Below are positions 51,654-55,827 of a DNA stretch of 64,000 nucleotides, in pieces. Source of the DNA: Lachnospiraceae bacterium (GTDB taxonomy: Bacteria; Bacillota; Clostridia; Lachnospirales; Lachnospiraceae); the NCBI GenBank assembly GCA_030524525.1, contig JAUNGI010000001.1, forward strand, positions 156,664 through 220,663, read 5' to 3'. Positions within the stretch are counted from its first letter, which is position 1; the number at the start of each line of letters is the position of its first letter. The position numbers and the translations under genes are program-made. Below the pieces are notes generated by a model. The model saw only the letters and a program-made list of their open reading frames with translations. It did not search any database and was not told the origin of the DNA.

Positions 51654-52277
51654 CTAAACAACGACCAGCAGCCGCTCAAGCGACGCTGCGTTCGTCCACA
51701 GCCTTTGATAAAGATCCGTGCATTTCCGGATCTGCGAAAACCGCTGCTGCGCCCTCTGGACGTCGCCGTACACCTTCCAGAGCCCGACGCACTTATAATT
51801 GTCCGCCTTGTTTTCGATAAAGCCCCGGACGTCCTCGGGCGGATAGCCGAGGAACAGACCGATCTCGTGCGGGAATCCGGACGCCTCCGAAAGCCTTCCG
51901 ATCAGTCGGAGCAAATGCTCCTCCGGCGTGGCGCCCACATAGCCCAGCTCCGCAAGCAGCCGCTTTGCCTCCGCGTCCTCCAGATCGCGTTTGAGAAGCG
52001 ACGGACGGTACAGATACAGCAGGACCTTCGACTCCCCGTAGCGCAGAGGGAGAATGCGCAGCCCCTTTGCCGCCAAGCCGCGGTTTCGTCTGCGCAGCTC
52101 GCCCCGCAGGTCTTCCCGCGTCCGATACCTGACCGAAAAAAGATTTCCGGTCGTCAGCCCCGCCAGCGTCGATGCGCCGTGCTGGACAAGGCTCGCGTCC
52201 AGCGTCGGTTCCGCCGGCTTCCCGCTGCCTTCCTTCGGTTTTGGCGCAGCGCGCCCTTCCATATGTTCAGCCGACAT
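51654..52277 (-). CDS. DUF3793 family protein
   Basis: 207 residues, no signal peptide or membrane segment. The family core is visible: YLYRPSLLKRDL, then SGFPHEIGLFLGYPPEDVRGFIEN, then NYKCVGLWKVYGD. Function unknown; the family is associated with DUF2325 and flavodoxin genes and presumed linked to iron or redox. An Arg-rich, Ala/Pro-rich N-terminus is weakly conserved. ATG 52277 overlaps the DUF2325 stop by 11 bases and has GGAGG upstream. Confidence 0.88.
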   Translation of the reverse strand: MSAEHMEGRAAPKPKEGSGKPAEPTLDASLVQHGASTLAGLTTGNLFSVRYRTREDLRGELRRRNRGLAAKGLRILPLRYGESKVLLYLYRPSLLKRDLEDAEAKRLLAELGYVGATPEEHLLRLIGRLSEASGFPHEIGLFLGYPPEDVRGFIENKADNYKCVGLWKVYGDVQRAQQRFSQIRKCTDLYQRLWTNAASLERLLVVV

Positions 52278-52569
52278 TGGCAACCTCCGTACTTGCATGC
52301 TCGTTCAGAATGTTCCGAAGCGCCGACATGGACGCGGAATGCGACCGCGCGATGATGGTGCCCGGTGTTTTCGCTTCGTTCAGCGCGCAGCGCAGCATCT
52401 TGTGCGACATCGTTCCGGTAAACAGAACAAGCAGATCGGGACTTCCGATCTTGTTTTTCAGCCCGCTTTCCATTTTCGGAAAGACCTTCGCCCGGCATCG
52501 GTACGAGCGACATAGCTCCAGATACTGCCTGACCATACATTCGTTGCCTCCAACGATCACTACGCTCAT
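52267..52569 (-). CDS. DUF2325 domain protein
   Basis: 100 residues: MSVVIVGGNECMVRQYLELC at the start, then LLVLFTGTMSHKMLRCALNEAK and an IARSHSASMSALRNIL helix. This is the DUF2325 Rossmann-like fold; biochemical role unknown. ATG 52569 follows GGAGGGAAC. First gene of the unit with DUF3793 and flavodoxin; a palindrome at 52607-52622 lies 38 bases upstream. Confidence 0.9.
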   Translation of the reverse strand: MSVVIVGGNECMVRQYLELCRSYRCRAKVFPKMESGLKNKIGSPDLLVLFTGTMSHKMLRCALNEAKTPGTIIARSHSASMSALRNILNEHASTEVANVG

Positions 52570-52606: not shown

Positions 52607-52622
52607 GTTAGTTTAGACTAAC
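52607..52622. promoter_or_regulatory. Palindromic operator-like site before DUF2325-DUF3793-flavodoxin
   Basis: GTTAGT-TTAG-ACTAAC, a 16-base palindrome (TTAG-N6-CTAA core) about 38 bases upstream of the first start codon, where a promoter is expected. The same core occurs twice before the ABC transporter at 55000-55701. Confidence 0.7.
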
Positions 52623-52631
52623 CCATGCTTC

Positions 52632-52677
52632 AAAAGAGAACGCCTCAACGGATGCTTTATCCTGCGGCGTCTCTTTT
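52632..52677 (-). terminator. Terminator after the FtsX-type ABC operon
   Basis: A stem of about 12 bp with one bulged base (52666-52677 with 52632-52644) and a 21-base loop, ending in a T-rich sequence on the minus strand. Confidence 0.65.
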
Positions 52678-52706
52678 CCCCGACGGGGAGGGGGCAAGCC
52701 GGGCTT

Positions 52707-54986
52707 TTATTCCGCGCCCTTCAATGCCTCCACCATATCAATATTTCGATTTTTTCTCGCCACCATCACACTGACGAGCAGCGATACGCCAAGCGTCAAC
52801 AGCAGGCTGACCAGATACGTTGCGGGCCCCAGAACCAGCTTCAGCTCATATTCGGTCGCAAGCTCGTTCAAAAGATAGCTCAGCACGCCGATCCCAAGCG
52901 GCAGCCCGATCGCCATGCCAAGGACGGTCGCCCACAGATTCTGCCCGATGAGCAGCTTGCCGATCTTCCGGTCCTTAAAGCCGACGACCTTGAGCGTCGC
53001 CATTTCGCGGTAACGCTCGGTATAGCTCATAACGCCGAGATTATACAGCACAACAACGCCAAGAATAATTGCCGCGGCTGCAAGAAGCACGATCATCAGG
53101 TTCATAAGTTCCATAAACGAATCGAACGAATCGACGATCATCTGCTTGGACTGTACGCTTTTAACGGCGGCGTCCGAGGCGACCGCGGACTTTTCCGTCT
53201 CGGTATAGATCGAATCGACCACATAGGGAATTTGAAGCGCATCCGCATAGTCCGCCGAAATTACGATACTCTCCGAAAGGCTGCGTATGACGCCGGCAAC
53301 CTTCAACGTGTACTCCCTGTCGGAGCCGTAAGGACTCAGCGTGAAGCTGTCGCCCTCGGTCAGATCAAAGGCGTCCGCCAGACGCGTGCAGAGATATGCG
53401 CCCTCCGCGCCGATCTCCGCCATGCCATCGTCCTTCTCCGGGAACCGAACCAGATCGTTTTCCAAGCGGTAAACGTCAAGGGAGACCGCTTTTTCGCCCA
53501 TCTGTACGCTGACGCTCGCGCTCCAATCGCCGCGATACTTGGCGATCAGTTCCTGCCGCTGCTCTGCCGTTGCCTCCTCGGTCAGATAGAGCCGGGAGGA
53601 ATACTGCGTCGCCTCGTCATAGTAAAGCTCCAAAAACGCGTTCATCGTATCGCGCATACCGAGCGCGCAGACAACGATCGTCATACAGCCGACAATGCCG
53701 ATCAGACTCATGGCCGTTCTGGACTTGTGCCGCATAATATCCCGCAGATTCCAGCGCGTGCCGAACGAAAGCCGGTGGAACAGCTTCGTTTTTTCCACAA
53801 CCAGCGGCTTCATTTTCTTCGGCGTGTACGGTCGGAGCGCCTCGGCGGCGGTCCCGCGAAGCATTTTCCGGGTGGACAGATAGCCGATCAGAGTCAGCAG
53901 CGCAAGAATTCCCACCAGAATCACGCAGCAGAACCATGGCAGATACAAATGCCACCAAGGCATGTCAAAATAGGTTCCCATCATGCCGCCCGGATTCATA
54001 ATGACCCAAGCGATCCCATAGCCAAGGGCGGTTCCGAGCACCGAGCCGATCACGCCGATCATCAGCGCGTAGGAGGCATAGTGCCGCAGGATGCGCCGAT
54101 CCCGAAAGCCCAAGGCCTTCAGCGTCCCGATCTGGGTCTTTTCCTTGGCGGTCAAACGGTGCATCGTCGTGACCATCGTCAGCACGGCAATCAGCAAAAA
54201 CAGCACCGGCATAACGGAGCCCATCGTCTTGCCCTCCTCGGACTCCCCCTGCGCCCCCGAATAGGAAATGTTCTCGTCCTTGGAAAGCACCAAAAGCGTT
54301 GTGGAAAGCGTCCCGTCCAGAGCCTCGACGAATTCCTTTTTGTCGAGCTTCGACAGCACGTTGAGCTGCGGATAATACGCGCCGCCCGCCGCCTTCTCGT
54401 ACATAGCGGGCGATATGTAGGCAAATCCGTGGGTATCGTAGTCGGGCATGAGCTGCGTTTCGTCGCGGACACAGATCATATATTCTCCGGCTTTTATCAA
54501 CCCGACAACTTTTCCGGAAATCTCCAGTCCCTTATAAAGAAACGTCAGCCGGTCTCCGAGCCGCACCCCGTTCGCCTCCGCATAGCGCTCGGAAAGCCAG
54601 ATCCCGTCCGCGCTCTCCCTGTCATAGTCCTCTCCGTCCATAACCAGAAAGCCGGAGACCGCTTCGTTCTCGGTCACGGTCAGCGCAACGCTGTCCCCCT
54701 CCTGTTCCTTCACGTCCACGTTGACCGAGAGAAACCGGGAGACCTCCGAAACTCCGTTCATCGCAGAGACCTTTTCCGCGTCCTCCTCCGTAATGCCGCT
54801 CTCCGAAACGATCCGATAATCGGCAAAGCCGGTCTTTTCAAAAAAAGCGGAGGTGTTTTCCTCTATGCTTACCCATTCCATATTAAAGCCGACAAACACG
54901 CCGATCCCCAGAGTGATCATAATGATCATGGAAATAAACTGCGCCTTGTACAGCCCCATCGTTCTCCAAAGCTTTTTGAACAGCAT
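52707..54986 (-). CDS. ABC transporter permease, two FtsX-like domains
   Basis: 759 residues. One membrane segment at the N-terminus (about 15-35), an external domain, three membrane segments with the FtsX pattern (about 255-375; EKTQIGTLKALGFRDRRIL), a fourth near 430, a second external domain, and three C-terminal segments (about 630-750; YREMATLKVVGFKDRKIG). This is the double-FtsX architecture of LolCE/MacB-like and peptide-resistance exporters. It ends the operon with the ATPase gene, 13 bases apart. Substrate unknown; shared operators with an iron-type cassette suggest regulation by the same factor. Confidence 0.9.
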   Translation of the reverse strand: MLFKKLWRTMGLYKAQFISMIIMITLGIGVFVGFNMEWVSIEENTSAFFEKTGFADYRIVSESGITEEDAEKVSAMNGVSEVSRFLSVNVDVKEQEGDSVALTVTENEAVSGFLVMDGEDYDRESADGIWLSERYAEANGVRLGDRLTFLYKGLEISGKVVGLIKAGEYMICVRDETQLMPDYDTHGFAYISPAMYEKAAGGAYYPQLNVLSKLDKKEFVEALDGTLSTTLLVLSKDENISYSGAQGESEEGKTMGSVMPVLFLLIAVLTMVTTMHRLTAKEKTQIGTLKALGFRDRRILRHYASYALMIGVIGSVLGTALGYGIAWVIMNPGGMMGTYFDMPWWHLYLPWFCCVILVGILALLTLIGYLSTRKMLRGTAAEALRPYTPKKMKPLVVEKTKLFHRLSFGTRWNLRDIMRHKSRTAMSLIGIVGCMTIVVCALGMRDTMNAFLELYYDEATQYSSRLYLTEEATAEQRQELIAKYRGDWSASVSVQMGEKAVSLDVYRLENDLVRFPEKDDGMAEIGAEGAYLCTRLADAFDLTEGDSFTLSPYGSDREYTLKVAGVIRSLSESIVISADYADALQIPYVVDSIYTETEKSAVASDAAVKSVQSKQMIVDSFDSFMELMNLMIVLLAAAAIILGVVVLYNLGVMSYTERYREMATLKVVGFKDRKIGKLLIGQNLWATVLGMAIGLPLGIGVLSYLLNELATEYELKLVLGPATYLVSLLLTLGVSLLVSVMVARKNRNIDMVEALKGAE

Positions 54987-54999
54987 CCTGCATCCCCCT

Positions 55000-55701
55000 T
55001 TACCATTCGATCTCGTCGGCGGATATCGGATGCTCCTGCTCCTCTTGAGAAACGATCCTGCCGTTTTTCACGCGGATGACCACGTCCGCCATTTTCGCAA
55101 TGTTCTGGTTATGCGTAACAATGACGATGGTCTTTCCGTAATCCCTCGCCATTTTCAGCAGAAGCTTGAGCACCATTACGCCGGTTTCGGAGTCCAGCGC
55201 TCCGGTCGGCTCGTCGCAGAGCAGGATCTTGGGATTTTTGGCAAGCGCGCGGGCAATGGACACCCGCTGCTGTTCTCCGCCCGAAAGCTCGGAGGGAAAA
55301 TTGCGCAGATGATCGGAAAGCCCCACCTCCGTGAGCATTTTCGTGGCGGACAGAGGATGCGGCGCGATCTCGTCCACGAGCTTTACGTTCTCATGCACGG
55401 TCAGCGTGGGAACGAGATTATAAAACTGAAACACAAAGCCGACTTTTGCCGCGCGGTATTCCGCAAGCGCGTCGTTGGACAGCGTGGAAATGTCCTTTCC
55501 GTCCACGACGATCTTTCCGCTCGTGGGACTGTCCAGTCCGCCCAGCAGATTCAGAAGCGTACTCTTGCCCGCGCCGGAGGGCCCCAGAATGACAACGAAT
55601 TTTCCCTCCTCCAATTGAAGATCGACATTGTCCAGTGCCTTCAGCTCATGATCGCCGCTTTTGTAAACGCGGCTGACTCCGTGAAATTCTACGATAGCCA
55701 T
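55000..55701 (-). CDS. ABC transporter ATP-binding protein (LolD/MacB type)
   Basis: 233-residue ATPase that powers the FtsX-type permease encoded next. Walker A GPSGAGKS (40-47), Q-loop VFQFYNLVP, signature [15 protein letters not shown], Walker [13 protein letters not shown] and the H-loop VTHN are intact. ATG 55701 follows GGGGGAG by 7 bases; the upstream frame start lies in the operator region. A strong promoter and two palindromes lie upstream. Confidence 0.95.
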
Positions 55702-55728
55702 ACAACAACTCCCCCTCGTATCTCCGGC

Positions 55729-55744
55729 GTTAGCCAAAGCTAAC
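55729..55744. promoter_or_regulatory. Palindromic operator-like site 2 before the ABC operon
   Basis: GTTAGC-CAAA-GCTAAC, a perfect 6+6 palindrome in the 5' leader, 27 bases before the ATPase start codon. Confidence 0.7.
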
Positions 55745-55773
55745 TCCTTCCTTAAAAGAAAAGCGGCGGCCAA

Positions 55774-55789
55774 ATTAGCCGTCGCTAAC
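55774..55789. promoter_or_regulatory. Palindromic operator-like site 1 before the ABC operon
   Basis: ATTAGC-CGTC-GCTAAC, same TTAG-N6-CTAA core, beginning about 3 bases after the predicted transcription start. A protein bound here would block RNA polymerase. Confidence 0.72.
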
Positions 55790-55798
55790 CGTTGCTTT

Positions 55799-55827
55799 AA
55801 TATAACTCCGTTTTACCGCCTTGTCAA
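55799..55827 (-). promoter_or_regulatory. Strong sigma-A promoter for the ABC operon
   Basis: On the minus strand, a perfect -35 TTGACA (55822-55827), a 17-base spacer and TATATT (55799-55804). The predicted start is near 55792. Confidence 0.85.

Follow-up and report, generated by a model that had tools for sequence, protein, structure and literature searches.

Two neighbouring transcription units of a Lachnospiraceae bacterium raise the question of whether a short inverted repeat, found ahead of both, places them under a single regulator and, if so, of what kind and in answer to which signal. The units, an ATPase-FtsX pair of the ATP-binding cassette (ABC) type and a DUF2325-DUF3793-flavodoxin unit, lie on a stretch of 64,000 nucleotides (positions 156,664 to 220,663 of contig JAUNGI010000001.1, assembly GCA_030524525.1), here called the window, and the repeat, here called the box, has the form GTTAG-N6-CTAAC. 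The palindromes are very probably operators of a repressor of the DtxR family, which would probably be responsive to iron.

The palindromes of the window

The original prediction had reported three palindromes, one before the DUF2325 unit and two before the ATPase-FtsX operon, and no others in the intergenic regions that it covered. All three are present (Table 1), and a scan of the window for GTTAG-N6-CTAAC at zero or one mismatch recovers exactly these, shuffled versions of the window giving a mean of 0.58 matches and reaching three in 1 of 100 shuffles. Looser forms are not in excess in the window, neither TTAG-N6-CTAA at one mismatch (5 found, 10.98 expected) nor GTTAG-N6-CTAAC at two mismatches (6 found, 11.43 expected), so that the signal depends on the full, near-perfect box. 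The box of the DUF2325 unit starts 53 bp ahead of the DUF2325 ATG, and box B of the other operon 43 bp ahead of the ATPase ATG. The promoter claimed ahead of the ABC operon is indeed close to consensus, and box A would cover about +4 to +19 relative to a transcription start inferred near 55792, just after the predicted start point, as had been proposed.

The box across the genome

The genome to which the window belongs is an assembly of 2.65 Mb in 62 contigs, with the window on C46, and the genome-wide scan called for with the original prediction enlarges the candidate regulon from the two units then supposed to about a dozen promoters. There are 9 exact boxes, against 1 site for the reversed pattern, and each starts 43-175 bp ahead of an assumed start codon; gene calls come from a codon-score caller and the starts may be off, as on C7, where the longer start called would place the box inside the frame and an ATG 57 bases further on was assumed. 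Seven further sites carry one mismatch. Each exact word has 30 variants with one mismatch, so that 2-7 background sites at one mismatch lead to an expectation of 0.07-0.23 exact sites, against the 9 seen.

On C1 the boxes precede feoA and feoB, both confirmed by Pfam; on C48 one precedes the gene of a NEAT protein, after which come those of an IsdE-type heme-binding protein, a FecCD permease and an ATPase, and a second precedes a DtxR-like gene; on C7 and C42 they precede ABC exporter genes. Another (C46:49890) stands ahead of an ATC-hydrolase-like gene with a fused ATPase-FtsX gene downstream, C49 holds another ATPase-FtsX operon, whose two boxes are 44 bp from each other, a near-box on C20 precedes a DUF6110 gene and a P-type ATPase, and an exact box on C16 precedes an enolase. 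Five of the seven one-mismatch sites lie before genes of this set (C1:18462 at feoA, C1:18759 at feoB, C20:39271, C46:212437 in the window and C49:116), and the other two (C16:49726 and C47:14241) look like chance. Judged by its gene content, the boxed set reads as one of iron starvation.

Genes of this kind could be thought to belong to Fur, the palindrome being incidental, for feo and flavodoxin are under Fur control in Clostridioides difficile and Clostridium acetobutylicum, where the regulon likewise places transporters under metal repression (PMC6311696). The window also holds five Fur-like 15-mers at up to three mismatches, where 1.24 are expected; none of the five falls in the two promoters. 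The best of them, with two mismatches, is at 54914-54928, inside the permease gene. When a Fur consensus was compared with 12 promoters, the best matches had 4-7 mismatches; the 74 regions upstream of orthologous operons matched it no differently from shuffled sequence, and a Fur box at the promoters of the set was rejected, no match coming near this consensus. The only Fur-family match in the genome has a rubrerythrin gene after it. PerR genes often adjoin rubrerythrin genes, and this neighbour suggests that the sole Fur-family protein is PerR. The regulon of the two Clostridia differs from the present set in both predicted regulator family and box, and control by Fur is very improbable here.

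Some further observations concern single members of the set. The genome has two enolases, of which the boxed one (L217, G000 C16:31181-32476) and three relatives at 82-84% identity (L218, L219, L220) carry an exact box about 100-160 bp upstream in all four cases, the boxed copies in relatives sitting among ABC-exporter genes; three other enolases that were found (L221, L222, L223) have no box in their loci. May the C16 enolase be an iron-controlled spare? The cassette of DUF6110 and P-type ATPase (L040:6272-8732 and L057) is found under a near-box, and a similar one in G012 has an exact box nearby, together with an FtsX ABC operon and a DtxR gene. The genome has 17 exact matches to the shorter form TTAG-N6-CTAA; five of them, without the outer G/C, look unrelated and were set aside (two each on C5 and C40, one on C27). 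On C40 (L008:1476-1610) there is a unit with TTAGTGTGTGCTAA before a TATAAT-like word, repeated 70 bp apart, a variant of which recurs on C27 (L007:1476-1540).

The box before orthologous operons

Relatives of the permease, at 49-68% identity, occur in many rumen and gut Clostridia, and the best 80 of 186 loci were used, three of which (L159, L164, L165) appear to come from the same assemblies as the genus genomes G008, G002 and G021. In all 80 an ATPase match lies just upstream of the permease. For the analysis of upstream regions 74 of the 80 had the required 150 bp or more, the other 6 being left out for short upstream sequence. A de novo search through all five-base half-sites with spacers of 0-20 returned GTTAG-N6-CTAAC as the top palindrome, in 27 of the 74 regions; the runners-up were overlapping registers of the same box (10 and 9 regions), and the next unrelated word reached 8 of 74. 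Allowing up to one mismatch, 40 of the 74 regions have the box, and each of ten permuted half-site controls reaches 0-1 of 74. Among the 34 unboxed regions, several belong to an ATPase that is a later gene of a feo, flavodoxin or DUF3793 operon, and the rest are unexplained.

Other FtsX permeases of the genus have a box in 1 of 26 loci, against 4 of 4 for the window pair and its orthologues, two of these four having only one-mismatch boxes 3' of the permease; the control is partial, in that it omits the boxed FtsX matches G000 C49 and G002 C29 and that the box of G012 C149 falls outside its locus L109, and these matches indicate that some FtsX paralogues share the box. DUF3793 genes occur in 6 of 22 genomes of the genus and all are boxed upstream, the window's own unit exactly and the other five at one mismatch within 300 bp. 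In 20 relatives, 36 of 48 exact sites fall in 20 loci that were taken as long stretches; close to the box, 15 of these loci carry genes for feo, DtxR, ZIP, an ABC exporter or FtsX, and five (L049, L050, L052, L053, L056) do not. For several loci of other composition, with few genes called (L048, L049, L051-L054), tblastn was used. What is observed directly is the box with its placement and gene company, and its enrichment both in this genome and upstream of the orthologous operons.

Among the neighbours in the 80 loci, counted up to 10 kb on each side and to be taken as lower bounds since many contigs are short, are DtxR (17), DUF3793 (17), FeoB (16), FeoA (16), flavodoxin (13), ABC exporter (11), ZIP (8), DUF2325 (5) and TetR (4). 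This last family offers another reading, in which a TetR-type regulator would bind the box and the operons would respond to a small molecule, and TetR genes do lie near boxed ABC-exporter or FtsX operons on C42 of this genome, where the assignment was confirmed, and in G002, G003, G005 and G021. Nevertheless, TetR neighbours 4 of the 80 orthologous loci against 17 for DtxR (a comparison of one TetR query with two DtxR queries), the genes on either side of the window's two units encode a trypsin/PDZ protease and a glycosyltransferase and not TetR, and half-site and spacing match the DtxR family (PMC8464063). Control by a TetR regulator is judged unlikely.

Form of the box and the candidate regulator

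The original prediction had held that the spacing differs from that of DtxR-family sites, and in this it was mistaken. According to PMC8464063, one IdeR dimer binds TTAGG-N4-CCTAA, which is TTAG-N6-CTAA, the identical spacing; this is called there the first such example for IdeR, and TTAGGNNNNCCTAA is proposed as a redefined consensus. Half-sites and six-base spacing of the present box thus fit a predicted DtxR-family operator. With the actinobacterial IdeR/DtxR box (TTAGGTTAGSCTAACCTAA, one-dimer form TTAGGNNNNCCTAA) it shares the TTAG/CTAA half-sites, the six-base gap and the company of iron genes, and it differs in being a single-dimer site with C or T, rarely G, after TTAG and with R-G before it. 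Across 146 distinct exact sites GTTAG is followed by C in 59%, T in 27%, A in 12% and G in 2%, the IdeR-type G being rare there, and the base before is mostly a purine, giving the consensus R-GTTAG-Y-N4-R-CTAAC-Y.

These 146 sites also bear on the idea that the palindromes work as RNA hairpins, for which it may be said that the boxes lie in or near 5' leaders and that a hairpin with a T-run lies over box A in the window leader (z -2.28), the leader of the C49 paralogue giving z -5.16. Complementarity at the inner positions is close to that expected from independence (0.48 vs 0.43, 0.33 vs 0.27, 0.34 vs 0.33), and an RNA hairpin was rejected as the function of the box because the inner pairs are barely more complementary than independence predicts; a terminator-like hairpin after the box is seen in 2 of 40 boxed regions, where 0.25 would be expected, and within the window Rfam gave no match at gathering score. 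There is thus very little likelihood that the box acts as RNA. The attenuator-like hairpin with its T-run, which overlaps box A in both of the genome's own FtsX leaders (window 55755-55793 and L044:112-152), is a side note, since the form occurs in these two operons and in 2 of 40 boxed relatives.

If we return to a DtxR-family repressor, PF02742, a domain of that family, has a single match in the genome, a protein of 131 amino acids on C25 with both Pfam domains over the cut-off and with 2h09 and 1on1 (MntR) as best solved matches. In comparison with IdeR it is too short for the C-terminal SH3-like part, and Feo-type uptake is among its predicted targets; the contact residues Ser37, Pro39 and Thr40 of IdeR are conserved or similar (Thr, Pro and Ser in the C25 protein), and residue 43 is Gln in IdeR, Ile here and Arg in the relative from G008. 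PMC8464063 states that Gln43 of IdeR contacts the base pair next to TTAG, which is the very base at which the box departs from the IdeR site, and also that IdeR Q43A still binds, so that the fit between residue 43 and this base is suggestive only. With the MntR of Escherichia coli and Bacillus subtilis the C25 protein shares its best solved matches and the Asp of the manganese type, and it differs from them in having Cys at position 102, as in iron-type DtxR, and in its predicted targets, which are iron and heme genes.

The order of genes in relatives points to the same family. Of 19 DtxR genes in the genus whose upstream sequence is complete, 10 have a box within 300 bp (8 exact; ten controls, 0 of 190), although some of these genomes are close kin and the cases are not independent. 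In G021 two exact boxes, 29 bp from each other, lie between the DtxR gene and the divergent, orthologous ATPase-FtsX pair; G002 and G008 share the order DtxR, two boxes (also 29 bp apart), feoA-feoA-feoB-ATPase-FtsX, two one-mismatch boxes, DUF3793 and flavodoxin; G004 has DtxR, box, feoA, feoB; and G013, which belongs to another family of the order, has DtxR divergent from feoA-feoA-feoB with the box between. Several dtxR genes linked to feo, FtsX or ZIP (L126, L127, L131, L134) also carry a one-mismatch box within their coding region.

Points against, and the metal

Several observations count against a DtxR-family, iron-responsive repressor. Firstly, no promoter-like site was found in the search ahead of the DUF2325 unit, and 23 of the 74 orthologous upstream regions have nothing better than four mismatches to the box, which is only partly explained by their position inside feo or flavodoxin operons. 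Secondly, the dtxR gene on C25 has no box upstream, and G007, which is 97% complete, has the box although no DtxR match was found in it; the reason may be that its contig seems to break off soon after DUF3793, where relatives carry feo and dtxR. Thirdly, a further protein may also bind the box: the second boxed gene on C48 (L043:8647-9450) encodes a DtxR-like protein of 267 amino acids without metal ligands (26% identity over 89 amino acids, E-value 0.003), which, lying beside heme-uptake genes and having a sub-threshold NEAT-like match in its middle part (E-value 0.0074), is possibly a heme-sensing relative.

Finally, the counts leave some room for chance palindromes. In 12 relatives of the same genus the exact word occurs 25 times, against 28 for the reversed pattern, which is no bulk excess, and at one mismatch the reversed pattern is the commoner in this genome (30 vs 16). 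The reversed pattern is nonetheless a poor yardstick, as its background rate exceeds that of the box; in 8 genomes at the level of the order the exact word occurs 23 times against 13, and in the same-genus relatives it is the placement of the box and its tandem pairing, not the bulk count, that carry the signal. The excess of exact sites in this genome, their location and the genes that accompany them argue against chance, whose probability is negligible.

As for the metal, the site of the C25 protein is of Asp/Cys/Glu/His type and not the iron-type Met10/Cys102/Glu105/His106, which also weighs on the other side; in the 22 genomes of the genus, Met10 is present in 15 of 19 readable DtxR genes and Cys102 in 20 of 20. 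There is a precedent for the Asp/Cys mix in PgMntR of Porphyromonas, and it makes manganese possible in the present genome. PgMntR is described as manganese-responsive; in vitro it bound Mn as well as Fe, and the feoB1 promoter of its host was not bound (PMC4805248). Taken by gene content, iron is probably to be favoured over manganese, manganese or both being conceivable.

In summary, the palindromes would be single-dimer operators for a metalloregulator of the DtxR/MntR family, the C25 protein being the candidate binder in this genome. With the metal (most likely Fe2+) plentiful, the metal-loaded dimer, lying over the promoter or just 3' of it, would block the genes of iron acquisition and iron sparing; with the metal scarce, the regulator would leave, and the ATPase-FtsX pair and the DUF2325-DUF3793-flavodoxin unit would be induced, and with them feoAB, heme uptake and ABC transporters. 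The binding protein and the repression we infer, as we do the metal. What had been proposed of a single regulator of metal type for both units of the window, with binding as a prediction, is well supported by the comparative evidence; the size of the set and the argument from spacing did not stand, and the label of exporter for the FtsX pair is a guess from the fold.

The genes of the two units

Table 1. Boxes, promoter and genes of the two units, in window coordinates.
Feature	Position	Strand	Basis or remark
Sigma-70-like promoter TTGACA-17-TATATT	55827-55799	-	11/12 to consensus
Box A of ATPase-FtsX operon, ATTAGCCGTCGCTAAC, 1 mismatch	55774-55789	-	just 3' of predicted promoter
Box B of ATPase-FtsX operon, GTTAGCCAAAGCTAAC, exact	55729-55744	-	45 bp from box A
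ABC ATPase, LolD/MacB-like, 233 amino acids	55000..55701	-	sequence match
Two-FtsX-domain ABC permease, 759 amino acids	52707..54986	-	sequence profile and structure model
Box of DUF2325-DUF3793-flavodoxin unit, GTTAGTTTAGACTAAC, exact	52607-52622	-	starts 53 bp ahead of the DUF2325 ATG
DUF2325 protein	52267..52569	-	sequence match
DUF3793 protein	51654..52262	-	sequence match
Short-chain flavodoxin, 141 amino acids	51199..51624	-	sequence match

FtsX-type ABC proteins are also known under the name of type VII. The permease was modelled from 27 sequences (mean predicted local distance difference test, pLDDT, 82.4; predicted template modelling score, pTM, 0.76), and its best structural matches are YbbP, BceB, HrtB, LolC/E and MacB, the top four spanning the whole model at root-mean-square deviations of 7.5-9.0 A and 11-12% identity; its sequence profile matches MacB, YtrF, LolF/LolC and FtsX. 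It is on account of these structural and profile matches that it is placed among the FtsX-type ABC proteins, and the heme exporter HrtB is one among several comparable structural matches. To YbbAP, BceAB, HrtBA and MacB/LolC, at 11-20% identity to the permease in the top eight matches, the window pair stands in contrast by being boxed and linked to feo. The earlier name of exporter was thus a guess at the level of the fold: judged by the model, the permease may be described as a two-FtsX-domain ABC protein, for which an exporting, a releasing or a sensing role are all conceivable, and its cargo is likewise our inference.

Meaning for the rumen and gut Clostridia

In a literature search judged by titles and the opening lines of abstracts, with few subscription journals covered, no paper was found on a TTAG-type DtxR regulon with feo in Clostridia, nor on bacterial DUF3793, and within that same weak scope the present form of regulon was not found described. 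It may be proposed, tentatively and with somewhat less than even confidence, that rumen and gut Clostridia use a DtxR-family repressor with a TTAG-type box of its own, in place of Fur, as their global iron regulator, and that the boxed ATPase-FtsX pair is an undescribed and conserved partner of the uptake of ferrous iron or heme, which would move or sense some iron-related compound at the envelope and be induced together with an iron-starvation enolase.

At all events, the regulator seems to control a far larger set of iron and heme uptake genes in this bacterium and its relatives, and a replacement of Fur is suggested in this bacterial group. The one-dimer DtxR site would look like the usual form in the group (cf. 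PMC8464063), and FtsX-type ABC transporters of one family would be tied to iron, along with DUF2325, DUF3793 and a spare enolase. The box would then offer a readable mark of the iron response in gut and rumen bacteria that are mostly uncultured.

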